A stretch of 64,000 nt of DNA, taken from assembly GCA_024278975.1 (NCBI GenBank), contig JAJRSD010000039.1, positions 62,001 through 126,000 of the forward strand. Reading direction: 5' to 3'. Source of the DNA: Bacteroidota bacterium (GTDB lineage: Bacteria > Bacteroidota > Bacteroidia > Bacteroidales > Prolixibacteraceae). The position numbers and the translations under genes were made by a program. The notes beneath the pieces were generated by a model. That model saw only the letters and a list, made by a program, of their open reading frames with translations. It was not told the DNA's origin and did no database searches. This document shows, piece after piece, positions 17,879 through 62,016 of the stretch. Every line of letters starts with the position of its first letter. Within the stretch, counting starts at the first letter, position 1.

Positions 17879-20545
17879 TCACTTTTTTCGAAAAGGATTT
17901 GGAATTTTAATCAAATCTTCAACAACTTTTCTATCATGCTCAAAGCGGGCGAGTGTATAAACATTCCCTTCGAAGTCGATAGCAATAGAGTTTACATACG
18001 TTGGTCTTGTTCCGTCAGGATAAAAAACGGCTCCGTTATCGGTATATTCCGACTTTAAAATATCGTAGGTAATTAAGTGAAGATCCTCCAGACCTTTTGC
18101 AGCACCCATCGCTATTTCATCAACTCCTTTTACTCTTTTGCCATCAATATAAATTGGTCCGCCGGTTAAGTAATATAAAGTATGTTTATCGTGCCCGAGT
18201 TCAAATCCCAGATAGCCATAACTAAACTGGTCGAACATGCCACTTGCTTTCGAAGGTGCTGAAGTAATTCTGTCAACAATTTCTATTTTTGGAATGCGCG
18301 GATTGAACTTAAACAGATACCCCGAATTTCCGTGAACTCCGTACGCAACTTCTTCCTGTTCATTCCAGACAATTCTGCGCCAGTTATATCCCATGCTTCC
18401 TGCTCCGGTAAAATCGTATTCACCAAAATAATCGAGCCTGAGATTTACACCATCTACTTTTTTTATTGAGGCAGAACCCGGAGAATAAGTGTAAATATCT
18501 CCCTCGGCAGTTGAGTAATAAACCGCTCCGTTTGCAGGGTCAACAAACATCGACCGGCATAAAACACGATAGTCGTCGCCCGGCTTACCTGCCTCGCCAT
18601 TTAATGAAATTAAGCCGAGATTTTTCAGTTTGTCATTTTTAATATCGTAATGAATAAAATATCCTTTTGGCCAGGTAATACCATAAATTTGCCCACGGTC
18701 TTTATCTAATGTCATGGTAATTATTCCCTCTCCATCGGGTGCAATTGCTAAATCTTCAAACTTGCCATCAGCAAGATTATACGATAAAATATGCCCACCC
18801 GGATAGAGATTATAACCGGTGGGGGCGTTAACCGGCAAACACTCACTGCCGTCAATCATTTCGTAAAATCCTACATGAGTTGCAAAATATAGTTTACCGT
18901 CTTTTTCCTGAAAATTTACATGACTTTTTCCCTGCGCAATTGCTTTTGCATCTTTTTCGTTACAAACATCTGTTAAGTCGGCAATCCATTCGGTTGAATC
19001 TGTTTTGGGATTATAGCGATACATTTGTCCGCCTTTATTGTATCGTTGCGACGAAAGCACGTAATATATATTTCCATCGCTTGCCGACGAAATTGCGTTG
19101 TATGTGTCGTGCGCTTCATCGAACCCTGAGAAATAGCGTTTCGCCGTAAGATGTTGATTTGGGTTGGGTTGCTCCAGCTTTTTTATACCTGCCTCATCTG
19201 CTAAATTTACTATCCCATCTAAAATAACCGATTCTATATTTGCCATCCAGGGAGCCGGCAATCCATAAACAACATGCGACATTGAACCCTCGTAACCGCC
19301 CTCTTTTAGTATTGTTGTTGAAGGAATGTAACCTTTTACATCGTTTGTATAACTAAAAACAAAAATATCATGTCCGAAAAATTGTTTTAGTTTAATCGAA
19401 TATTCTGTTACTACCTCGCCACCCAAACTAAAAATTTGCTGATTTCCGATTTGCCAAATCTGTACCGGTAGCGGGTAAAATGTTGGCAGTGGTTCGCCAT
19501 TTTCCATTTTACTCAAAAACCGGTTAGCCCAACGTTTTTGGTATTCTATATCTGATTCAGCCAATTTTAACAACTCTTTTTTTGTTGAAGGTTTACCAAA
19601 AGGCAACTCTATTTCGGTGTACGAAGTCGTCAGCTTTGGTGCGAGTTTACGCATATCTTCACTTAAAACTCTATCGACTGCGGCGGCCAAATCTTTACCA
19701 TATTGTTTAGCAAGAGCAACAGAACGGCGCGGCATTGGATTTTGGTCGGCACCGGTACCCTGCATAAACATTGCTGTTGCTCCCCGATGGTTTTTCTCAA
19801 TCTCTATTTGTGCAAACCCGGGATAATCGCCCGACCATTTGTTTATATCTAAAACAGTTGCATGGCAAGCATATCCAAAAACAATTGCAACTGTTTTCCC
19901 TTTCCTGTTTTCAACTTTCAGAACCGGAACAGAATAATCGTTTGGTCCTTTCAGTTCTGTTTGTTCAATTAAAGTCGATTCATTGTTATTGCGTCGGTTT
20001 ACCTGAAAACGGGAAACACCATTTTCGGCATAAATATTTACTGGTTTTGAAGAGCGAAAAGCTTTATCAACTAATGCAATAATCTCGTCTTCGAGCCAGA
20101 TTGTGTATGCTTCAATTTTAGCAATCTCGACCGGGTTTAACGGGTAAATATCGTAAAGTGCATTTTTAAGAACCGGTCCGCTGTGTGTATGCGAACTGTT
20201 AATCATTATTTGAGCTGCCGACAGATTAAATTTTTCTTTTAATCTACGACGAATATTTCTGGTAAACTCCTTTGTTGTGCCCAATAAATCTGTTGTTATC
20301 AGCACTGCTTGATTTCCAACCGAATCTTCAATTACCAGAGCTTTTGCCCAGATGTCGTGTATTTTACCTTCCGATGGAGTTGTGCGACTGGCATATCCTG
20401 CCATCCACATCGACTGTTTTGGCGTTATTATTTTTTTGGCAACTCCGGCTTTCCATCCCTCTCCGCTACCATAAATATTTGTTGAATTTCCGAGAAAAAG
20501 AATCAGGAATATAAAAAGAATTGAATAGCTGGTTGTTTGTTTCAT
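17879..20545 (-). CDS. neutral ceramidase-like hydrolase with C-terminal beta-propeller
   Basis: 888 residues. A signal peptide (MKQTTSYSILFIFLILFLGN) precedes a domain like the N-terminal catalytic domain of neutral/alkaline ceramidase: GWKAGVAKKIITP, the metal-site motif SSHTHSGPVL near 121, and FGYACHATVLD near 223. From about residue 480 to the end the sequence is a series of repeated strands (DGNIYYVLSSQRYNKGG, GKLYFATHVGFYEM, GQIYGITWPKGYFI, GAVYYSTAEGDIYTY, VAYGVHGNSGYLFKF), a probable propeller absent from classical ceramidases. It is likely exported. The substrate may be a sphingolipid-like or sulfonolipid amide, or something else; many such bacterial proteins are uncharacterised. 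Confidence 0.8.
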   Translation of the reverse strand: MKQTTSYSILFIFLILFLGNSTNIYGSGEGWKAGVAKKIITPKQSMWMAGYASRTTPSEGKIHDIWAKALVIEDSVGNQAVLITTDLLGTTKEFTRNIRRRLKEKFNLSAAQIMINSSHTHSGPVLKNALYDIYPLNPVEIAKIEAYTIWLEDEIIALVDKAFRSSKPVNIYAENGVSRFQVNRRNNNESTLIEQTELKGPNDYSVPVLKVENRKGKTVAIVFGYACHATVLDINKWSGDYPGFAQIEIEKNHRGATAMFMQGTGADQNPMPRRSVALAKQYGKDLAAAVDRVLSEDMRKLAPKLTTSYTEIELPFGKPSTKKELLKLAESDIEYQKRWANRFLSKMENGEPLPTFYPLPVQIWQIGNQQIFSLGGEVVTEYSIKLKQFFGHDIFVFSYTNDVKGYIPSTTILKEGGYEGSMSHVVYGLPAPWMANIESVILDGIVNLADEAGIKKLEQPNPNQHLTAKRYFSGFDEAHDTYNAISSASDGNIYYVLSSQRYNKGGQMYRYNPKTDSTEWIADLTDVCNEKDAKAIAQGKSHVNFQEKDGKLYFATHVGFYEMIDGSECLPVNAPTGYNLYPGGHILSYNLADGKFEDLAIAPDGEGIITMTLDKDRGQIYGITWPKGYFIHYDIKNDKLKNLGLISLNGEAGKPGDDYRVLCRSMFVDPANGAVYYSTAEGDIYTYSPGSASIKKVDGVNLRLDYFGEYDFTGAGSMGYNWRRIVWNEQEEVAYGVHGNSGYLFKFNPRIPKIEIVDRITSAPSKASGMFDQFSYGYLGFELGHDKHTLYYLTGGPIYIDGKRVKGVDEIAMGAAKGLEDLHLITYDILKSEYTDNGAVFYPDGTRPTYVNSIAIDFEGNVYTLARFEHDRKVVEDLIKIPNPFRKK

Positions 20546-20802
20546 AAGTTTATCGTCTAAAATTCGGTATTATAACTTGTTATATTTTTTTACTTTACGT
20601 TGATAGAAATTGTAATTTTGTTTAGTATTTCAGTATTTCTATCAATTCTTTACGATATGTTTTTTGTGCTTTTTCTTGTACTATTATATTTTGAATGTGC
20701 CCCTAAATATACAAAGAATAGCCCATGTTGTAAAACAGTAGCTTTTATTACCTGCTGAGCTCTCTTTATTTCTTCCTGATTTAAATCTCTCTGATATGAA
20801 CA
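20546..20802. other. intergenic region between the ceramidase-like and helicase-fusion genes
   Basis: No gene is recognised. After the helicase stop codon the same minus-strand frame stays open for about 45 codons (QRDLNQEEIKRAQQVIK and on). A TAATG overlap would also start a 40-residue peptide in another frame. Neither resembles a known protein, and both may be chance in this AT-rich stretch. Confidence 0.3.
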
Positions 20803-23800
20803 TTACCTTTCAAAATACAACTCCGGTAACACAATTTTAATTTCTTTCTCATCATCAGTATTTTCATTGTTGCTTTCCCAAAATAATATAAACCTTATCT
20901 TAGATTCAATTAATTTATAACCTTGGTTATCTAATGATTCTTTTATCAATTGAAAGTTTTTTGAAAATTTCACTATTTGTTCGTTATCCAAATTAATCAA
21001 ACCTTCTTCATTAACTTTTAAAGTGTCTCCACTTGACAATGAATTTAATCTTCTTTGGATAAAAGCAAAATATCCCAGATTAATGTCCCTGTGATTCAGA
21101 TGATATACTAAATGATTGGGTAAAGGGTGCTTCTCGTTATTTTCTACCCTAATAGTATCTTCTGCATTAATATTATTAAGGTAGTCGCCATTATAATGAA
21201 TAGTCAGATTTTGTTTTGCCCTAGTCATTGCTACATATAGCAGGCGTTTGGAATCATCTGAATTTGCGTTGAAATTATCAAGCATCAAGAATACATTATC
21301 AAACTCTTTTCCTTTTGCTTTATGAATTGTGGAAACAATAATAGTTTCTCCTTTTTGAGCAACGAAATCTTCCAGTTTTGATTCTTTAATAAAAATCTCA
21401 AAGTCGGAGTTGTATTTTACTTTTGGGTTTGTTTCCTGAAAGTCTATAAGAAGTTGTTTGCAAATATTATAATTTGAACTTTTCTTATATCTCTTTGCAA
21501 ATTTCCTTTTTGCATTGTTCCATGCATCAAGACTTATTGTAGGTGTTGAATTATTTAAGTCTAAATATTCAATAAACGACCTTATCTCAATCAGATCATA
21601 AAGGCTAAAACCATCGTTGGATTGTATTAATTTTGCAGGCAACCCGCTTTTCAGAAGTAACCCTGTGATTTTTAAAGCTTCATCGTTGGTTTTTGTTAGC
21701 ACACCGGTAGTGCCGGACAAACCTGTTGAACATATTTCGTTTACAAAGGGAACCACAAAGTTATCGTTGCTGTAGTTTACGATTCGAATACTCCCGTTTC
21801 CCTTCTGAACAGATACAATTGGTGTTGTCTTTAGGCGATGACGTATTTGCTCAACATACTTATTTGTAAACTCAACCAGATTCTTTTTAGACCTGTAGTT
21901 TTCGACCAATTCATATTTTGTTGCGCTCTTTTCCGTAATAAACTGCTCAAAATATTTCGAATCAGCCCCTCTGAAAGTGTAGATGTTTTGGTCATCATCA
22001 CCAACAGCAACTACTCTCATCTCCTCATTTTTCTCCATTAGAGATTTTATCAAATAAAATTCATGTACATCCATATCTTGTGCTTCATCAATCACAAGTA
22101 CGCTTTTCACAATTCTGTTGGGTTCAACTTCTCCACTCCTTATCTTTTCAATAGTAAGCTGAAGAATCTTGTCAGATTTTTCAATGCTCCCAACTCTCCC
22201 AAGTAAGTCAAAACAGTAGGAGTGAAATGTTTTTATTTCAATAAAATTAGCAGCATTACCTATTAGTTTAATTAATCTTTTTTTGAATTCGGTAGTGGCT
22301 GCTCTGGAAAATGTCAGCATTAACAGTTGTTCGTGTTTAACATCTTCCATTAATAAAAGAGAGGCTAATTTATGAACTAAAACCCTCGTTTTTCCGCTGC
22401 CGGGGCCGGCCGCAACAAGGATGTACTGATTTAGATTGTCTTTTATTATTTTAAGCTGCCGGGGTGATAATTCACCAAAAAGTTGCTTAAATTTCTTTGG
22501 TGTAATATTCCTTTGAAGCTCATCTTTGCGACTTCCCGGAAAATATTTATTTAGAAATGAGCTGTAATTCAATTGGAAATAGTCCTCAACAAAACTTAAT
22601 GCTTCCCGGTAATCAACAAGCATCTTTTTAGCGTATTCTCCAACTATATGAATCTGCTGCATTTTATTATTATAAAACTGCTCAAGTTGGCTGTAGTCAT
22701 CCTTTTTATACTGTATCTGATTATTTTGTTCAAGCCTGTCAATTGTTAGTTTATTGTAAACAACCAAAAAACCACCCTCAATTTTGATTGCTTCGATTCT
22801 TGACAGATAAAAAAGAGCATCTTCAATATCTTCAATAGATGCATCTATCTTAAACAGAGAGGATGCGTTTACATAATTGTCTCTTAATTCGTGAACGGAA
22901 AATTCGACTAAAATTTCATTCGACTCAACTGTATTTTTATCCTGAGTGTTTCTTGTTTTATCGAAAAGATATTTTAAAATAAATTCAGACAGCAAGTGCC
23001 TTTTCTCAAGTTTATCCTTTAAAATATCTTTTGGTTGATTACAAATTATTGAGACATGGTTTTTCGAATAATTATGATTGTGTTTTTTAATCCAATTTTT
23101 AATTGCCCAAAAAATCAGAATAGTTTTTATCTTGTTTGGATTAACACCGGTGCAATTGTTCTCCATAGCATCTTCGTTTAACTCTTTAAGGTTAAACACC
23201 CTTTCTTGTTCTTCTAATTCGGGTAAAAGAAAGTTCTCAATTTTCGCAAATGATTCTAAAATGGACAAGGAACGATTAACATTATCATCTTTCTTTATAA
23301 AAGCCGTTAAGTCTTTGGTGTCCGCTAATATTTTTTCCTCGCGAAGTAGTGTAATAATTTTTATCACTTCTTCCTTTACGATACCCAAATGGTCAGAAAT
23401 GTAATCAACTCTTGCCTCCGGCACTTCGTCATTTAAATGCTTTTTACTTTTAGTAGAAAATAGCTTTTTAATAATGCGAATTGCCCTGATTTTCTGTTGC
23501 TCATCAAATCTTGAAGACTTATTTATCTTTTCTATTGCTTGTTGGGCATTTTTTGACAAAATACTATTTGCAAAAATCCGGGGTATATTTTGCCCCCGCT
23601 TTAAATATCCTGCATGTTCAAGTGCAGCGATAGCCGTTGTTACGCGGGTTTCTATTTCAATGACGTTATCATCCCACCCGGCTTTTCGGGCAATCTCTAA
23701 GGCCGAGTTAGAAACAGAGGAGCGAAACTTTGTAATCTGTTTTATTGCTCTCCATATTTGCTGAATCTCTTTTACCGATAGTTTGGTTTGATTGAGTAAA

Positions 23801-25638
23801 ATAAAATGTTTGTTCAGGTCTTCTTCGTTAAATAACACAAAACAGTCTGCCGAAATATTCTCGTCGCGCCCTGCCCGCCCTGCTTCTTGCACATAGTTTT
23901 CCAATGAGTCGGAAATATCATAATGGATTACCACCCCGACATCTTTCTTATCGACACCCATTCCAAAAGCTGAAGTAGCAACCATAATTTGAACATCGCC
24001 GGCAATAAAACCATTCTGATTCTCTGTCTTCTCTTTAGCCTCCATCTTTCCATGGTATGGTTTGGCATTAAATCCATCCTTACTTAATCGTTCAGCAAGG
24101 TCATAAGCCTTTCTTGTCCTTGAAACATAAATGATTGTAGGGCAAGATTTCGACTCAATTAACCTTCTTGCACTATTGTACTTGTCCTCTTCGTTTGTAC
24201 TATTATAAACCTTGTATTGCAAATTTGTCCTTGTACTGTTTGCTTTGAAAACTTCAAGCTTCAGAGATAATTTCTCTTCAAAGTATTGACAAATGTCAGC
24301 GATAACATTTTGTTTGGCCGTTGCTGTAAAACAGGAGACCGGGATTGGGTCTAAAAGATTTTTCTTTTCCTGAAGTTGTTTAATGAAATCACCAATGTAT
24401 AAATAATCGACCCGAAAGTCTTGTCCCCATGCCGAGAAACAGTGTGCTTCATCTACTACAAAGCGAACGATATTTCTTCCTAACAGTAATCGTTCAATAG
24501 TTTTGGAACGAAGAGATTCAGGAGAAATATATAAAATAGACGCAGAACCATCTTCAACCCTCTCAAAAGATTTACCTCGCTCTATTGGGTCGAGCAATCC
24601 ATTAATGGTCACCGCTTCCGTTATTCCGGCTTTTTCAAGGTTGTCAACCTGGTCTTTCATTAATGATTGTAACGGAGAAATGATGACTGTTAAGCCTTTG
24701 GTGTTTCTGCCTGCCATTAAAGCAGGGATTTGAAAAGTGAGTGATTTCCCTCCTCCGGTTGGAAAAACAGCCAAAAGCGACTTATTATTAATTGCCGCAT
24801 TAACTGCATTTTCCTGTAGTGGTTCTCCATTAAAAGTACGGTACAAGTCGAATCCGAAAAATTCTTTTAGTCCTTTTTTTGCATCTAATGCTTCATCACA
24901 ATATTTGCAACCTTCTATACATGGTCTGTTTCGAAGCAAGTACATTATACTTTCTACTTCAGGATAATTCATCAAAACCCAGGGTGGGGTTATAGAATAA
25001 CGGTCTGTACTATTAATTAATGCCAGGCAGTAAGCAAATTCAATTGGGTGGTTGTATATGAATGTTTCTATTGGAGCATTTGAGCAAAACCTGTTTTGAA
25101 AATGTTCATTTATTAATTTTGTTAGAAAGGCTTCTTCGGAATATGAAAAAGAGATGTATTTAAAGAAATAGAAGAACTCTTCATGTTCTTTTAATAGTAA
25201 ATAGTAAATCCGTTTTAAAGATTCATCAAGATTATTGAAAGCAGTTATTTCGTCATAAAACAGATCCTTTGCCTTTTGAGAATCGTTTACCGGATTGTTT
25301 AATTCATCTGTTTGTATTTTATCGTCCTTTAGTAATCGATGATAGGGTTTTGTGGGAAATAGTAGAGGAGATAAAAATAAAGTATCTATATACTGTAAAT
25401 TATTTTTCCCTTGAAATGAAAGATATTTTTGAATATACCTCAAGTCATGTCTGATTATATTATGTCCACAAATGAAATCTGTGTTATTCAGAAAGCCTAC
25501 AAAATCTTTTACAGAGTTCGAATGAAAAACAGTCCCATCACTTTTCACACCTCCAATGTCAAGAATCCTCTTGCTTCTTGGATCTATTTCGGTGTCAAAA
25601 AAGGTGATAGGTTTCATCTTTCGTTTCAATATTTTCAA
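20803..25638 (-). CDS. DEDD exonuclease-RecQ helicase-UvrD helicase fusion protein
   Basis: A 1611-residue multi-domain protein. Residues ~10-170 resemble a DnaQ-type 3'-5' exonuclease: FFDTEIDPRS (Exo I D and E), CGHNIIRHDLRYI (Exo II), YHRLLKDDK ... NNPVNDS (Exo III). A cysteine cluster CIEGCKYCDEA follows near 240. A complete RecQ SF2 helicase comes next: Walker A FPTGGGKSLTFQIPA near 296, VDEAHCFSAWGQDFR near 396, ATSAFGMGVDKKDV, and QEAGRAGRD near 586. The C-terminal part is a UvrD/Rep SF1 helicase: AAGPGSGKTRVLVHKL near 1078, VIDEAQDMD near 1185, GDDDQNIYTFRGAD, HKAKGKEFDNVFLML and LLYVAMTRAKQNL near 1471. Roles in recombination, repair or defence are inference. It heads leftward from an inverted-ended element at 25674-25802. 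Confidence 0.9.
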   Translation of the reverse strand: MKILKRKMKPITFFDTEIDPRSKRILDIGGVKSDGTVFHSNSVKDFVGFLNNTDFICGHNIIRHDLRYIQKYLSFQGKNNLQYIDTLFLSPLLFPTKPYHRLLKDDKIQTDELNNPVNDSQKAKDLFYDEITAFNNLDESLKRIYYLLLKEHEEFFYFFKYISFSYSEEAFLTKLINEHFQNRFCSNAPIETFIYNHPIEFAYCLALINSTDRYSITPPWVLMNYPEVESIMYLLRNRPCIEGCKYCDEALDAKKGLKEFFGFDLYRTFNGEPLQENAVNAAINNKSLLAVFPTGGGKSLTFQIPALMAGRNTKGLTVIISPLQSLMKDQVDNLEKAGITEAVTINGLLDPIERGKSFERVEDGSASILYISPESLRSKTIERLLLGRNIVRFVVDEAHCFSAWGQDFRVDYLYIGDFIKQLQEKKNLLDPIPVSCFTATAKQNVIADICQYFEEKLSLKLEVFKANSTRTNLQYKVYNSTNEEDKYNSARRLIESKSCPTIIYVSRTRKAYDLAERLSKDGFNAKPYHGKMEAKEKTENQNGFIAGDVQIMVATSAFGMGVDKKDVGVVIHYDISDSLENYVQEAGRAGRDENISADCFVLFNEEDLNKHFILLNQTKLSVKEIQQIWRAIKQITKFRSSVSNSALEIARKAGWDDNVIEIETRVTTAIAALEHAGYLKRGQNIPRIFANSILSKNAQQAIEKINKSSRFDEQQKIRAIRIIKKLFSTKSKKHLNDEVPEARVDYISDHLGIVKEEVIKIITLLREEKILADTKDLTAFIKKDDNVNRSLSILESFAKIENFLLPELEEQERVFNLKELNEDAMENNCTGVNPNKIKTILIFWAIKNWIKKHNHNYSKNHVSIICNQPKDILKDKLEKRHLLSEFILKYLFDKTRNTQDKNTVESNEILVEFSVHELRDNYVNASSLFKIDASIEDIEDALFYLSRIEAIKIEGGFLVVYNKLTIDRLEQNNQIQYKKDDYSQLEQFYNNKMQQIHIVGEYAKKMLVDYREALSFVEDYFQLNYSSFLNKYFPGSRKDELQRNITPKKFKQLFGELSPRQLKIIKDNLNQYILVAAGPGSGKTRVLVHKLASLLLMEDVKHEQLLMLTFSRAATTEFKKRLIKLIGNAANFIEIKTFHSYCFDLLGRVGSIEKSDKILQLTIEKIRSGEVEPNRIVKSVLVIDEAQDMDVHEFYLIKSLMEKNEEMRVVAVGDDDQNIYTFRGADSKYFEQFITEKSATKYELVENYRSKKNLVEFTNKYVEQIRHRLKTTPIVSVQKGNGSIRIVNYSNDNFVVPFVNEICSTGLSGTTGVLTKTNDEALKITGLLLKSGLPAKLIQSNDGFSLYDLIEIRSFIEYLDLNNSTPTISLDAWNNAKRKFAKRYKKSSNYNICKQLLIDFQETNPKVKYNSDFEIFIKESKLEDFVAQKGETIIVSTIHKAKGKEFDNVFLMLDNFNANSDDSKRLLYVAMTRAKQNLTIHYNGDYLNNINAEDTIRVENNEKHPLPNHLVYHLNHRDINLGYFAFIQRRLNSLSSGDTLKVNEEGLINLDNEQIVKFSKNFQLIKESLDNQGYKLIESKIRFILFWESNNENTDDEKEIKIVLPELYFER

Positions 25639-25673
25639 TTTATGTTATATTGTTTCTCGCTCTTCGCCTTGCA

Positions 25674-25802
25674 GATAACGGCTCGGCTATGCGTAGTGTG
25701 GGATTTTGAAACGCCATACTTTTAGATTACCACTTAATTTCATTGCTTGCATAATCTTTCTATTTATCACTATCTCCCGCATTACGTATAGCTTTTGTTA
25801 GC
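25674..25802. repeat. inverted-ended element 1 (copies A and B)
   Basis: The left end (25674-25703, plus) reads GATAACGGCTCGG then CTATGCGTAGTGTGGGA. The right end (25775-25802, read on minus) is GCTAACAAAAG then CTATACGTAATGCGGGA. The two ends are therefore terminal inverted repeats of about 30 bases around 70 bases of AT-rich DNA. The right end overlaps the last codons and stop of the truncated DUF1016 gene; the left end is about 35 bases from the helicase-fusion start. Confidence 0.7.
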
Positions 25803-26309
25803 TAAATCAGATTTTGGTTTTGGCAGTGAGTTTGAAAAGTTTGTTATTACTTTTCCTTGTCTTGCATACAAATTATTTTCTATTTGCATATCAAGTATAT
25901 CACGTGACCAATTATTTTCAATCGTTTCTTTCAAGTAAAATATCGCCTTTTCTATATTATCCAATTTGCTGAATATCTTAATATTATGACCCCACGGAAT
26001 TTGTGCAACAAGTTGTTGCACTTTTTCAAAATCGGTTTTATAAAACAGATAGAAACTCTTCATATAGAAAAGATTTCTTCGTGAAAATCCTTTCATTGCC
26101 GGAAATTCGGTTTTCAAATCTTTCGAAAGAGTTTCGACAACAGCATTTCCCCAATCTTGTTTATCAAACAATTCCTTTCCAATTTCCCAATAGAGTTTTA
26201 TCAACTCTGAATTTACAGAAATTGCCGCTTTTATTTGAGCCTTCCCTATTTTGTCTTTCAGCTCATTAAGCCATTCAATATAGTCTTTATGCTGTTTCTC
26301 TAATTTCAT
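25782..26309 (-). pseudogene. DUF1016/YhcG-type protein, truncated before the nuclease domain
   Basis: About 175 residues from MKLEKQHKDYIEWLNELKDK. The N-terminal DUF1016 domain is clear: ELIKLYWEIGKELFDKQ, FPAMKGFSRRNLFYMKSFYLF, VAQIPWGHNIKIFSKL and ITNFSNSLPKPKSDLANK. Full YhcG-like proteins run 340-370 residues and continue into a PD-(D/E)xK nuclease domain, which is absent. The reading frame passes into the repeat end at 25775-25802, and the stop TAA (25782-25784) is part of the repeat. An upstream ATG at 26369 is in frame, but a -7 element TATCTTTG (26325-26332) lies inside that extension, favouring 26309. Such proteins often accompany restriction systems; this copy is probably non-functional as a nuclease. 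Confidence 0.75.
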
Positions 26310-26324
26310 ATTTTCCCTTTTCAA

Positions 26325-26332
26325 CAAAGATA
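26325..26332 (-). promoter_or_regulatory. putative -7 element of the truncated DUF1016 gene
   Basis: On the minus strand TATCTTTG matches TAnnTTTG, 15 bases before the ATG at 26309. It shows the gene carries its own promoter within the repeat-bounded unit. Confidence 0.45.
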
Positions 26333-26374
26333 ATCTAACTTTTTTTATTGCTGAAATCTTTATTTTCAATAACC

Positions 26375-26562
26375 GCTAACGGTTAGTGTATGTGGAGTGC
26401 GGAATTAAAACTGATGAACTTTCAAAACCGTACGGAGCCAATTCGTTTATTCAATATTTCAAATTTTAGCCAAGACGTCAAAGACGAATTGGCGGTGTTG
26501 CAACAACGAGCTACAGCCCAAAAAACCGCTGAAACCCGCATTACATATGACACTTTGTTAGC
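26375..26562. repeat. inverted-ended element 2 (copies C and D)
   Basis: The left end (26375-26403, plus) reads GCTAACGGTTAG then TGTATGTGGAGTGCGGA. The right end (26535-26562, minus) reads GCTAACAAAGTG then TCATATGTAATGCGGG. Inside, a perfect 10-base inverted repeat GCCAATTCGT/ACGAATTGGC (near 26430 and 26490) would add a second stem. The ends match those of the element at 25674-25802. It separates the divergent starts of the DUF1016 fragment and the sigma-factor gene. A 70-codon open frame across it (26390-26602) is read as chance. Confidence 0.7.
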
Positions 26563-26615
26563 GCATCATTATTTTTTATCTCTCAAATATACAGCCAGTT
26601 AATCAATTCCTGAAT

Positions 26616-26623
26616 TATTTTTG
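26616..26623 (+). promoter_or_regulatory. putative -7 element of the sigma-factor gene
   Basis: TATTTTTG matches TAnnTTTG 55 bases before the ATG at 26679. No TTG at the expected -33 distance is obvious. Confidence 0.4.
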
Positions 26624-26678
26624 TGTTTTTTTGTAATAAATTCTTCTCGAAAGATACTTTATTAGAAACGAGCCAAAT

Positions 26679-27182
26679 ATGGAATCATTGAAAAAAGAGT
26701 TTCTCGAAATATTATCCAATTATCAAGGAATAATTTACAAAGTCAGTTTAGTTTATTTTAAAAGCAAAACTGACAGAGAAGATAATTTTCAAGAAATAGT
26801 TTATCAACTGTGGAAGTCCTACCCAAAACTGAAGAATAAAAATAGTATTGGGTCTTGGACATATGCGGTCTCAATAAATACTTCTATTTCAAGGATTAAA
26901 AAAGAAAAGAAAATTGAATATCAAGAAAATGTGCCAGAATTGCCTGATAAATCAAATATCATTGACGAAATAACAAAGAATGAATCATTGCAATTGTTGG
27001 TAAATGCTATTTATAATCTTGATGAAATAGACAAATCAATCATGCTACTGTATTTAGAAGAAAAGAGTTATGATGAAATTGCTGAAATCATTGGCGTTTC
27101 AAAATCAAATGTCGGCGTGCGAATCAACAGAGCTAAAAAAATATTGAAACAGAACCTTAAAAATTTGAATCATGGAAAATAA
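26679..27182 (+). CDS. ECF-type RNA polymerase sigma factor
   Basis: 167 residues, typical ECF length. Region 2 is seen as YFKSKTDREDNFQEIVYQLWKSYPKL then GSWTYAVSINTSISRIKKEKK. Region 4 is seen as LDEIDKSIMLLYLEEKSYDEI then AEIIGVSKSNVGVRINRAKK, the helix-turn-helix that reads the -35 element. Codon use is AT-rich. The gene overlaps the next by 11 bases, the usual arrangement for a sigma factor and its membrane regulator. It lies between inverted-ended element 2 and a half-element at 27797. Confidence 0.92.
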   Translation: MESLKKEFLEILSNYQGIIYKVSLVYFKSKTDREDNFQEIVYQLWKSYPKLKNKNSIGSWTYAVSINTSISRIKKEKKIEYQENVPELPDKSNIIDEITKNESLQLLVNAIYNLDEIDKSIMLLYLEEKSYDEIAEIIGVSKSNVGVRINRAKKILKQNLKNLNHGK

Positions 27183-27801
27183 TGAGCTACAAAAAATATG
27201 GAAAAGTGCTGATTTTGAAATCAATAAAAAATCCAAAGATGAACTGAATTTGTTACTGACTTCAAAAGCTAAACAAACCCTTAAAGAACTTATTATTCTG
27301 GATATTATTGCAATTCCCATTTGTGTGGGAGTTGTGGTTTGGTTAATCATTAGTTCGATAAATAGAATAGATGATAAATTATATCTGGCAAATAATATAT
27401 TACTTGGGATATTTATATTGATAGCACTCATTTATTGCATATGGTTTTGGGCTAAATTTCAACGCAATAAATTCAATCTATCAATAAAAAGTTGGTTAGC
27501 AGAAAGAATTAATTTGCAATCTATATGGCTGACTGGAAGGTTTAGGAAATTAGAATTCTATCTATTCCCATTAATATATATCCTTACAAATTTATCAATC
27601 CATGTTTACTATACAAACCTGTATTTTAACGATGTCTTTGTATCAGAAAAGTTTTTGGAAGAAGATATGTGGGGTATGATTATTTTTACAATCATACTTC
27701 TTGCTGGCGGTTTTTATGGTTTGATAAAAATTCGTGAATACCACATGAAAAAACTCGAATTTCTCAAAGATTTGTATGGTCGTCTGCACAATGTGTGCTA
27801 A
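27172..27801 (+). CDS. membrane protein, probable partner or anti-sigma factor of the ECF sigma
   Basis: 209 residues. An N-terminal cytoplasmic segment (MENNELQKIWKSADFEINKKS) precedes four predicted membrane helices: IILDIIAIPICVGVVVWLII, ILLGIFILIALIYCIWFW, LFPLIYILTNLSIHVYY and MIIFTIILLAGGFYGLI. No classical zinc anti-sigma motif is visible. Its role as anti-sigma is inferred only from the 11-base overlap with the sigma gene and the soluble N-terminus. The stop codon TAA (27799-27801) is part of a GCTAACG half-repeat. Confidence 0.75.
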   Translation: MENNELQKIWKSADFEINKKSKDELNLLLTSKAKQTLKELIILDIIAIPICVGVVVWLIISSINRIDDKLYLANNILLGIFILIALIYCIWFWAKFQRNKFNLSIKSWLAERINLQSIWLTGRFRKLEFYLFPLIYILTNLSIHVYYTNLYFNDVFVSEKFLEEDMWGMIIFTIILLAGGFYGLIKIREYHMKKLEFLKDLYGRLHNVC

Positions 27802-27827
27802 CGTATTTGTATAAGTACCTTATAATG
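27797..27827 (+). repeat. half copy (E) of the island repeat end
   Basis: GCTAACGTATTTG then TATAAGTACCTTATAATG. The first half matches the repeat ends at 25674, 25802, 26375 and 26562; the GCGGG part is decayed and no partner end was found to the right. It starts on the stop codon of the membrane-protein gene. Confidence 0.5.
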
Positions 27828-27868
27828 TAAATTTATTTATATTCTTACACTATCCGAGTCTTAAAAAC

Positions 27869-29233
27869 TCAAATCTTACTATCAATATCACCGGCATTTT
27901 TTTGAATTTTACTGATTGCTTCTGCAATTCCATCCATATCCGGCTTTTCGGTAAGCAGTACATTCTGAGGTAACCAAATCATCTCTTCGTTACACAGTTT
28001 ATCGTTTACCGGGCACTGATTTCTTTCCATAAACAGATTATAATCAAGCATCTCTTTGGGGTACATTTTCTGAAAGTTTTTCGACTGAAGCGCATTATTC
28101 AGATAAGGCATTGTATTTAATGTTGAGTATCCTTTTGAGCAGGAGACTCCTTCAGCATTAAGTGCCTGCAAAAATTTAGCCCGTGGCAAACCATCAAATT
28201 TTTCGCTGTTATATTTAAACGGGAAAAGATGATATGCGGCTCTTGTAACGTTGTCGTACAGTTTATACGGAGTAATTCCGGGGATATTTTTTATCTGCGA
28301 TTTCAGATATCCTGCATTTATATTTCGTGTTTCCGTTTCGCTTTCCAGCCTTTTTAGCTGAGCCAAACCAATTGCAGCCTGATATTCGGTAATACGTAGT
28401 TTTGTACCTGCAATTGCTGTTCCTGCTCCCACCTCTCCAACCATTGCTCCGTACGGATTTCCGTAGTTGTGGTACGAATAACATCTGTCTATAAAATCGT
28501 CGTTGTCGCTAACAATTGCACCGCCCTCGCCAATGGGTAAATTTTTCGAATTCTGGAAACTAAAACATCCGGCATCGCCGAAAGTCCCCATCTTTTTATA
28601 ATTTATTTCGGCAAGCCACGCCTGACAAGCATCTTCAACTACAACAAGATTATGGTTATTTGCAATTTGCATAATTCGCTCCATATTGGCAGGCAGTCCT
28701 AAAATATGAACGGGTAAAATTGCACGTGTTCGCGAGGTGATTTTTGCCTCAATTTTTTCGGTATCTATTTGAAATGTTTCCGGGTCGGTATCGACAAAAA
28801 CAGGCATTGCTCCGGTTGCCAGAACTGCGGCAATTGTAGCAATAAAAGTATATGGCGGTACAATCACTTCGTCGCCGCCACCAATATTTAACTGAACAAG
28901 TGCTGCAATAATTGCATTTGTTCCGTTTACCACTGCGAGTGCGCGTTTTGCTCCCACCGTTTCTGCCCACTTCTCTTCGAACTCAGTTACAACTTTATTA
29001 CGCGACCAGACTCCGCTACGCAAAACTTCTATAATTTGTGCTTCGTCTGTTTCCGGATTCCATCTGGGCCATTTTGGCCAGCTTTCGGTGCGTACAGGTT
29101 TGCCGCCCAAAATTGCAGGAATATCAGAATCTTTCGTGATATTAAAAATTATGGAAGGAGTTACAATAGCTCCCACTCCGGCAAGAGAATTCTGTTTGAT
29201 AAATTTGCGTCTTGAATACTCATTTTTTTTCAT
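27869..29233 (-). CDS. DegT/DnrJ/EryC1/StrS-type aminotransferase with Tat-like signal
   Basis: 454 residues from MKKNEYSRRKFIKQNSLAGV. The opening is a twin-arginine motif (SRRKFIK) with a hydrophobic stretch, then the PLP fold: SGVWSRNKVVTEFEEKWAE, VNGTNAIIAAL, EVIVPPYTFIATIAAVL, VVEDACQAW, and the probable PLP lysine in SFQNSKNLPIGEGGAI near residue 229. Members aminate keto-sugars or dehydrate sugars. Export of a folded PLP enzyme is unusual but recurs in Bacteroidota sugar clusters. An in-frame start at 29284 would bury the Tat motif, so 29233 is chosen. Gfo/Idh oxidoreductase and esterase genes lie upstream on the same strand beyond mazEF. Confidence 0.88.
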   Translation of the reverse strand: MKKNEYSRRKFIKQNSLAGVGAIVTPSIIFNITKDSDIPAILGGKPVRTESWPKWPRWNPETDEAQIIEVLRSGVWSRNKVVTEFEEKWAETVGAKRALAVVNGTNAIIAALVQLNIGGGDEVIVPPYTFIATIAAVLATGAMPVFVDTDPETFQIDTEKIEAKITSRTRAILPVHILGLPANMERIMQIANNHNLVVVEDACQAWLAEINYKKMGTFGDAGCFSFQNSKNLPIGEGGAIVSDNDDFIDRCYSYHNYGNPYGAMVGEVGAGTAIAGTKLRITEYQAAIGLAQLKRLESETETRNINAGYLKSQIKNIPGITPYKLYDNVTRAAYHLFPFKYNSEKFDGLPRAKFLQALNAEGVSCSKGYSTLNTMPYLNNALQSKNFQKMYPKEMLDYNLFMERNQCPVNDKLCNEEMIWLPQNVLLTEKPDMDGIAEAISKIQKNAGDIDSKI

Positions 29234-29353: not shown

Positions 29354-29677
29354 TTAATCTACAAATGCTTCTTTAATTACTAATTTTACTTCTTTTATTT
29401 CTGGCTTTGTCATCTTTCCAAGTACCTTAATTATCCTCTGTTTGTCAACTGTTCTAATTTGGTCGACTACTATCCATCCTGTTTTTCCGTTATGTTTAAT
29501 TTTAATTCTTGTTGGGTAGCTTTTCGAACTTGTTGTCATAGGAGCAATTACAGTAGTACTCAAATATTTATTCATTTCGTTTGGAGAAATAATAATACAA
29601 GGTCTTGTTTTCTTTATTTCGCTGCCTATTGTTGGATCCAGATTTACCAAAACGATATCATATTGATTTAATTCCAT
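29354..29677 (-). CDS. mazF: MazF/PemK-family endoribonuclease toxin
   Basis: 107 residues. YDIVLVNLDPTIGSEIKKTRP then CIIISPNEMNKYLSTTVIAPM is the MazF fold with the conserved Gly-x-Glu...RP pattern near residues 17-27, and GWIVVDQIRTVDKQR near 70-85. MazF toxins cut single-stranded RNA at short sequences; the cut sequence cannot be predicted. The gene overlaps its antitoxin by 10 bases. It has no promoter of its own. Confidence 0.93.
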   Translation of the reverse strand: MELNQYDIVLVNLDPTIGSEIKKTRPCIIISPNEMNKYLSTTVIAPMTTSSKSYPTRIKIKHNGKTGWIVVDQIRTVDKQRIIKVLGKMTKPEIKEVKLVIKEAFVD

Positions 29678-29913
29678 TCCTCAAGTGTTTCGTCCTCAAA
29701 AATGTCATTAAATAACAATTTATCATCTCCATTTTCATTCATTTCTTTGAATGCTTCTTCCCAGCCTTTTCTTGGAGTTGACAGCGGCTGAATGATTATT
29801 TTTCCCTTTTCAAGAATTAAATCTACTTTGTCTTTAATGTTGTACTTTTCTAAAATTGTTTTACTAAAACGTATTCCTTTAGAATTTCCTATTTGTATAA
29901 CTGAAACTTCCAT
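29668..29913 (-). CDS. mazE: MazE-type AbrB-fold antitoxin
   Basis: 81 residues. The N-terminal swapped-hairpin DNA-binding domain is MEVSVIQIGNSKGIRFSKTI then KYNIKDKVDLILEKGKIIIQPL. The acidic C-terminus (MNENGDDKLLFNDIFEDETLEEW) is the toxin-binding tail. The fold and the overlapping toxin gene make the assignment firm. A palindrome upstream that overlaps the promoter is the likely autoregulatory operator. Confidence 0.92.
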   Translation of the reverse strand: MEVSVIQIGNSKGIRFSKTILEKYNIKDKVDLILEKGKIIIQPLSTPRKGWEEAFKEMNENGDDKLLFNDIFEDETLEEWN

Positions 29914-61995: not shown

Positions 61996-62016
61996 CGCTT
62001 AAAAATATTCTAACTT

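Follow-up and report, generated by a model that had tools for sequence, protein, structure and literature searches.

The closest described counterparts of the system analysed here are integrons, the rAID (recombinase-associated acquired interbacterial defence) immunity arrays of gut Bacteroidales and the Xer recombinases. Xer enzymes resolve chromosome dimers, and the attC site of canonical integrons has the core RYYYAAC / GTTRRRY. The structure of rAID-1 was reportedly called suggestive of active gene acquisition in the abstract of the 2019 paper that named it. The available text of PMC9668308 names an additional domain near patch III as a defining trait of the integron integrase IntI, and that of PMC8138268 describes the insertion as not fully conserved within an integron-like subgroup. 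Integron-bearing lineages include the Bacteroidota or the Bacteroidetes/Chlorobi group (available parts of PMC8618304 and PMC2426708), and one complete integron in true Bacteroidetes, in Salinibacter ruber, was found by IntegronFinder 2.0 (PMC9024848, likewise in part); searches of open-licence PMC papers brought up no title or abstract opening on an IntI-less integron of Bacteroidia. In the available text of PMC12247911 the biogenesis of rAID is called an open matter and the word integron is absent. Here, we analysed a 64-kb stretch of Bacteroidota DNA (positions 62,001 to 126,000 of contig JAJRSD010000039.1), hereafter the window, which holds imperfect palindromes between its genes. We conclude, with a probability of about 0.9, that these palindromes are the attC-like recombination sites of an integron-like system widespread in Bacteroidia, through which the bacteria apparently acquire and rearrange genes in the form of small mobile cassettes.

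Elements, arrays and a tyrosine recombinase

A previous inspection of the letters of the window (the sequence-only reading) had proposed that five ends share GCTAAC and pair as two elements and one half copy. Four of these ends (25802, 26375, 26562 and 27797) do carry GCTAAC or GTTAGC, but the one at 25674 reads GATAAC. The pairing itself was borne out by a covariance model, R1, which was built on an alignment (A1) of 28 elements. E1 (25674..25802, minus strand, 129 nt) scored 93.8 bits, partly by construction as it is one of the 28 training elements; E2 (26375..26562, minus strand, 188 nt, with an enlarged loop), which is not in the model, scored 54.3 bits and has a copy with 89% identity on contig C5 of the same genome. 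On the minus strand both are imperfect palindromes that start with GCTAACAA and finish with CCGTTA; their right cores read GTTATCTGC (E1, minus strand) and GTTAGCGGT (E2), and the arms of E1 pair, for example, as TATACGTAATGCGGG / CCCACACTACGCATA. The end at 27797 belongs to a half site (27797..27849, minus strand), the right half of an element or an entry site. Read by eye as CTTATACAAATACG|TTAGC on the minus strand, it resembles the right arm of full elements and is weak in R1 (7.9 bits, E 0.77, filters off).

The pattern GCTAACN{3,20}TGCGG occurs 3 times in the window against 0.25 expected, and none of 100 shuffles gave 3 or more; a search of the whole genome with an exact pattern yielded just 3 copies. 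R1, by comparison, found the further copies that the sequence-only reading had asked for, namely 16 on nine contigs of the window's genome (E<=1, the weakest at E 0.005) and 37, 45, 118, 41, 30 and 53 in six complete genus genomes (E<=0.001). Palindrome scans at low thresholds, which gave 83 matches against 39 and 129 against 68 in real sequence and mononucleotide shuffles, were used only to seed the model. Most elements measure about 130 nt, some about 190 nt, and those of a rAID locus about 46 nt.

The window contains no integrase, as had been remarked, and an IntI search of its genome returned nothing above the cut-off. This search did bring up a 354-residue tyrosine recombinase on a 4.9-kb contig (C78), the opening 100 or so bases of which are part of such an element. 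The protein reaches 221.7 bits against the IntI model TIGR02249, the cut-off being 265, and passes NCBIfam NF040815, 'site-specific tyrosine recombinase/integron integrase'. Homologues were found in 85 of 149 relatives (E<=1e-40), and in relatives homologues head arrays of elements; the sequence-only reading had advised a genome-wide look for such an enzyme associated with many copies. In a first set of loci, R1 gave 81 matches (E<=1) from 25 sources, of which 79 had an E value below 1e-3. Eight genus genomes in one to five contigs, for which both sides of the recombinase gene were taken, had matches below 1e-3 only on the side of its 3' end; one on the other side (L067) had E 0.13. Among the matches listed, elements span 66 kb behind the recombinase in one genome (G029), and complete genomes also have secondary groups (G013, G031) and single sites.

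This arrangement was reproduced in a second set, obtained by searching public genomes with a recombinase alignment (A3) and keeping the best 80 of at least 574 relatives. R1 (E<=0.01) detected 129 elements in 39 of the 80 loci, all 129 on the recombinase strand, 127 downstream and 2 upstream, with 2.4 times more sequence available upstream (724,676 bases against 299,650). Where 3 kb or more of downstream sequence was available, 31 of 33 loci had an element. Contigs ended within 2 kb downstream in 40 loci and upstream in 3 of the 80, as expected of repeats that break assemblies.

In the class, 146 of 295 sampled genomes carry the recombinase, in 90 of 156 genera (E<=1e-70), and 188 of the 295 have elements (E<=1e-4). 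They occur together: 129 of the 146 genomes with the recombinase have elements, against 59 of the 149 without it (odds ratio 11.6, uncorrected for kinship). We considered the possibility that the elements are ordinary IntI cassettes, moved by a canonical IntI in trans or formerly, the neighbouring recombinase being a bystander. The general anatomy of the sites is the same, canonical IntI is common in the phylum outside this class (above the cut-off in 84 of 296 phylum genomes), and in one genome elements lie 4-7 kb from an IntI gene. Yet only 1 of these 84 genomes belongs to the class of the window, and it is the new recombinase that elements directly follow. In 20 of the 84 genomes, all from other classes, 9 of which have elements and 7 the new recombinase (E<=1e-50), elements accompany the recombinase in 6 of 7 cases and are present in 3 of 13 without it. 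The cores also differ: 204 of 207 right cores (from 210 model rows) read GTTR and 15 fit GTTRRRY, which agrees with the earlier remark that the classic core is not strictly matched. Taken together, these data make the IntI explanation improbable. In three stretches from these 20 IntI-bearing genomes, 8 or 9 of the 9 bases agree in 7 of 8 neighbouring pairs. One stretch in genome G153, of another class (L290, 6838-9507), has four elements about 4-7 kb from the canonical IntI gene; two neighbouring cassettes there seem swapped in their end sequences (GTTGTATGC / GTTGTGTGC), and the two systems may exchange cassettes.

The lack of the IntI-specific domain, together with sites whose core is GTTR rather than GTTRRRY, places the recombinase outside the IntI family, although it apparently acts in a similar way. 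The domain is absent from 34 of 34 recombinases of the new family and present in 10 of 10 IntI (a set including IntI1, IntI3 and phage IntI); accordingly, the alignment places 57-62 residues between KxxR and HxLRH in the former and 98-99 in the latter. In the tree, IntI forms a clade (100/99) and the new family lies to one side of a weakly supported branch (62/64), the rAID recombinase falling inside its Bacteroidales part. The monophyly of the new family is not firmly shown by this tree, from which X_L009 (a wrongly chosen open reading frame with an end branch of 10) was dropped and X_L006 (a second copy of the same Xer) left out, and in which the Xer rows are long branches; with X_L009 still included, no branch set the new family apart (approximately unbiased test, p 0.0215).

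The predicted structure of the recombinase (pLDDT 84, pTM 0.51) is nearest to VchIntIA and XerA. HARP domains recognize single/double-strand junctions, and weak but agreeing signs suggest that the N-terminal 80 or so residues are HARP-like. Pfam HARP matched in 3 of 22 recombinases (best 3e-4), but DUF5710 did so in 4 of 22 (best 0.0028). A profile search gave the HARP of SMARCAL1 at E 0.62, behind an unrelated globin, and Foldseek ranked the same HARP structure first and second (probability 0.90 and 0.87, E 0.045 and 0.066, TM below 0.5). A phage origin of the recombinase was considered and set aside: no phage record covers 80% of it, the best of 80 kept virus-contig loci aligning residues 50-374 at 47%. 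The recombinase was also encountered in metagenome-assembled genomes labelled Rhodobacteraceae, Neomarinimicrobiota, Desulfurellales, Cloacimonadota, Spirochaetes and Ignavibacteria (L090, L093, L100, L144, L150, L151), by either contamination or transfer; that of L151 groups with Flavobacterium in the tree. Contig C1 of genome G062 has thirteen recombinase matches, eleven of them near-identical 294-residue frames at 37% identity, which look like a spreading element of another kind.

Cassette ends, attI-like junctions and pairing

If circular cassettes insert at G|TT, both ends of one cassette should match, and the bases flanking one element should come from two different cassettes. This is the pattern that was observed. 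An end of about nine bases (GTTNNNNNN) is carried on both sides of each cassette, so that neighbouring elements match across the gene and rarely within the element. In the first set, the count covered 65 of 67 adjacent pairs and 78 of the 81 matches, without L016, L067 and L011. The three bases that follow GTT all agree across the gene in 52 of these 65 pairs, where 2,000 permutations had a mean of 7.2 and a maximum of 15, and within the element in 10 of 78. The second set gave 77 of 88 (permutation maximum 23) against 17 of 125, and a further count 34 of 39 against 1 of 48, or 35 of 39 pairs when at least 5 of 6 bases are required (permutation maximum 8). The second-set count keeps L105, an array already present in the first set as L061, which contributes 2 of the 88 pairs; the orientation and folding counts omit it. 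The match extends to base 9 and often 10, base 11 agreeing in 1 of 88 pairs of the second set. Some mismatched ends of the first set are one-base shifts, such as GTTAAGCGCC vs GTTAGCGCC.

The end of the first cassette recurs 42-169 bp past the recombinase gene in 37 of 47 arrays (L105 and L061 being a single array), always behind G, which defines an attI-like junction. Several of these junctions come after an inverted or direct repeat, for instance GATAAACGCAATTGCGTTTATCCAATTG|TT in L097. In L063 (1,065 bp), L055 (674 bp) and L052, identical cassettes occupy two positions of the array next to different neighbours, and the identity stops at CGTT on either side; for a repeated cassette of L165, the end of the locus cuts off one side. 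Ends match at 8 or more of 9 bases in 129 of 150 cassettes. The longest open reading frame of these 129 is co-oriented in 116, reversed in 9 and absent in 4, and the start codon of the co-oriented ones lies at a median of 32 bp past the junction. The cargo is diverse: 112 of 118 proteins (2 repeats and 4 others left out) match 146 Pfam families, each in at most 4 proteins (SMI1_KNR4 and SUKH_6 in 2 each), and PADLOC models matched by cassette proteins include mad3, AriA, KwaB, AbiLi and type IIG restriction enzymes.

Ends that form inverted repeats of about 9 bp also raised the possibility that each cassette is an independent transposon, or a unit resembling a miniature inverted-repeat transposable element, moved by an unknown transposase. 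This would not account for the element that neighbouring units have in common, which is flanked by different bases left and right, for elements all pointing one way within an array, for a first unit starting at a near-fixed distance from the recombinase or for the variation of the 9 end bases between cassettes. We regard it as very improbable.

The matched ends also affect folding. With DNA parameters, sites as they would be in the excised circle (with the start of their own cassette on the right) exceed integrated ones in stability by a median of 5.4 kcal/mol on the top strand and 5.3 on the bottom strand, because the cassette ends match. The difference was seen in 145 (top) and 146 (bottom) of 147 cases, in a set that omits cassettes with poorly matching ends, bodies above 160 nt or equal ends.

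The fold is supported by covariation. All 14 predicted pairs show compensatory changes in the 28 training elements, with zero one-sided changes. In 128 distinct elements found by R1, in an alignment that was itself fitted to the structure, 91.6% of the cells are paired (57.3% in shuffles), covariation amounts to 0.717 against 0.139, a level that 0 of 500 shuffles reached, and G-U accounts for 22 of 1759 cells. Sequence drift under conserved pairing suggests that these sites, like attC, are recognized as folded single strands. One could also take the palindromes for transcription terminators, or for intergenic RNA elements that homologous recombination has spread. Their position between genes and their hairpins would fit, but this explanation can practically be dismissed, since the near-absence of one-sided (wobble) changes points to DNA, four loci gave no Rfam match up to E 1, and the agreement across genes extends to bases beyond the hairpin, for which a terminator would have no use. 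Many elements in A1 share a loop motif (about GCCCGCTTCAA ... TGACAGGAA) at a place where a variable loop was expected.

Probable cassettes of the window

The window very probably presents a small cluster distant from the recombinase, with two cassettes, perhaps three, beside a half site; gene borders coincide with element borders, as the sequence-only reading had stated. Cassette 1 (26563..27797, minus strand), whose own ends match at 8 of 9 bases, carries two genes that run against the direction of the array. These encode a 167-residue extracytoplasmic function (ECF)-type sigma-70 factor (26679..27182, plus strand; Sigma70 domains in Pfam and NCBIfam) and a 209-residue protein (27172..27801, plus strand), membrane-like by eye and without a Pfam or NCBIfam match. 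Cassette 2 (25803..26375, minus strand; ends matching at 6 of 9 bases) holds a DUF1016 gene, the open reading frame of which spans 25782-26369 with its stop within E1 and which corresponds to PADLOC PDC-S02. Beyond E1, a gene for a 1611-residue helicase-like protein (20803..25638, minus strand), parts of which match DpdF- and GajB-type helicase models, starts directly beside the element and is possibly the cargo of a third cassette. No closing element was found for it, just a possible remnant near 20543-20584.

These genes lie in an island (20460..27870) that is absent from a relative (G022) between the same two flanking genes. The flanks, an aminotransferase gene (77%) and the gene ending at 20545 (73%), are about 190 bp apart in G022 and 7.4 kb apart in the window; the base-exact empty site could not be fixed. 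The island was either gained in the window's genome or lost in G022. The content between the flanking genes is thus not constant, and this difference, together with the recombinase, the arrays in relatives and the copy number, supports the earlier proposal of an attC-like gene-capture system of Bacteroidota.

Another cluster of the same genome (contig C5, 1266-10640) has three elements with partly matching ends. Two of them are separated by 8 kb containing, by eye, a type I restriction-modification-like set and another DUF1016-like gene; this stretch would be an unusually large cassette, or one that has lost a site. Elsewhere in the window, two small open reading frames at 29354-29913 resemble by eye a MazF/MazE-type pair.

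Proposed mechanism and comparison with known systems

Comparison of sequences establishes the anatomy of the elements, their covariation, the matched ends, the attI-like junctions, the precise duplicates, the presence or absence of the island and the association with the recombinase. On this basis, we propose that a cassette usually consists of one compact gene and one imperfect palindrome, which most likely folds as a single-stranded DNA hairpin with a cassette-specific R stem of 9-10 bp (GTTNNNNNN), an unpaired spacer and a bulged L stem. The dedicated tyrosine recombinase would cut between G and TT, and a circular cassette would be inserted at the attI-like site just behind the recombinase gene, or at other sites. 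Repeated insertion would produce arrays that run away from the recombinase, and excision would reshuffle them. The role of the recombinase as catalyst is suggested by its position and strand, the attI-like site and its co-occurrence with elements; the single-strand step and the exact cut site are likewise putative, and the cassette-specific stem would presumably favour integration over excision.

Several observations weigh against this scheme. Recombination itself is something that we infer, with the precise duplicates as an indirect sign, and did not observe. The window lacks the recombinase gene, which sits on another contig; the ends of cassette 2 agree at only 6 of 9 bases, and the outer end of E1 has no partner. 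Elements occur in the 59 genomes of the class in which the recombinase was not found at E<=1e-70 and in the 3 IntI-bearing genomes of other classes that lack it, and the co-occurrence statistics ignore kinship. The attI-like match is more than 1 kb away in 4 of the 47 arrays and missing in 6, and the bottom strand is only slightly preferred in folding (95 of 147). Lastly, alignments A2 and A4 were fitted to the structure of the model, which favours pairing.

A broader reading, which we offer tentatively and consider somewhat more doubtful than not, is that of a second integron lineage, a gene-capture platform spread throughout Bacteroidia. Its integrase would never have had, or would have lost, the IntI domain and would read folded attC hairpins with the HARP-like N-terminal domain; the outer stem of 9-10 cassette-specific bp, complete only in the excised circle, would bias the reaction to integration, and the human-gut rAID immunity arrays would be one specialized branch. 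If so, the requirements for an integron integrase would change and a large unsearched pool of cassette genes, some matching defence models, would open. The way in which rAID arrays acquire genes, an open point in the available text of PMC12247911, would become directly testable. The scale would also differ: one Bacteroidetes integron in the available part of PMC9024848, versus a recombinase in about half of the sampled class genomes (146/295) and 30-118 sites per complete genus genome.

Among known systems, archaeal XerA and bacterial Xer resemble the new recombinase in having a catalytic part without the IntI insertion; unlike them, the new gene heads a cassette array and encodes an extra N-terminal domain.

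The likeness to rAID was assessed in one locus, that of Parabacteroides distasonis (NZ_OY725747.1), which was the best plasmid-collection match of the recombinase. Its recombinase is 49% identical and nested in the new family; Tdi1-type and SMI1/KNR4 genes come after it, which is the make-up of rAID in the available text of PMC12247911. The locus thus has a rAID-type tyrosine recombinase and conserved intergenic motifs. R1 misses its hairpins of 44-48 nt, which were read by eye and then by script; cassette ends agree (at 5 or more of 6 bases) in 7 of 8 adjacent element pairs, compared with 2 of 73 other pairings. The rAID elements differ by their shortness, by CCATTA ends in 8 of 9 and by mostly immunity-like genes, whereas the new arrays carry diverse genes. 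The 174-kb record, labelled 'plasmid 2' (L178), has glmM, rpe and other housekeeping-type genes beside the rAID array and may be a piece of chromosome.

The likeness to integrons is the most extensive. It comprises a tyrosine recombinase beside the array, attI-like entry at G|TT, foldable attC-like hairpins with R box, spacer, L box and bulges, cassettes of a gene plus an attC-like site with common ends, mostly with one co-oriented gene, and clusters away from the integrase. In contrast, the new recombinase has an N-terminal domain of about 80 residues (HARP-like, on weak evidence) and no IntI-specific insertion, the 3' end of its gene faces the array, and the core is GTTR with 9-10 cassette-specific bases instead of GTTRRRY, in elements mostly of about 130 nt. 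Because the IntI-specific domain is lacking and few cores fit GTTRRRY, we regard the system as integron-like, yet outside the canonical type.

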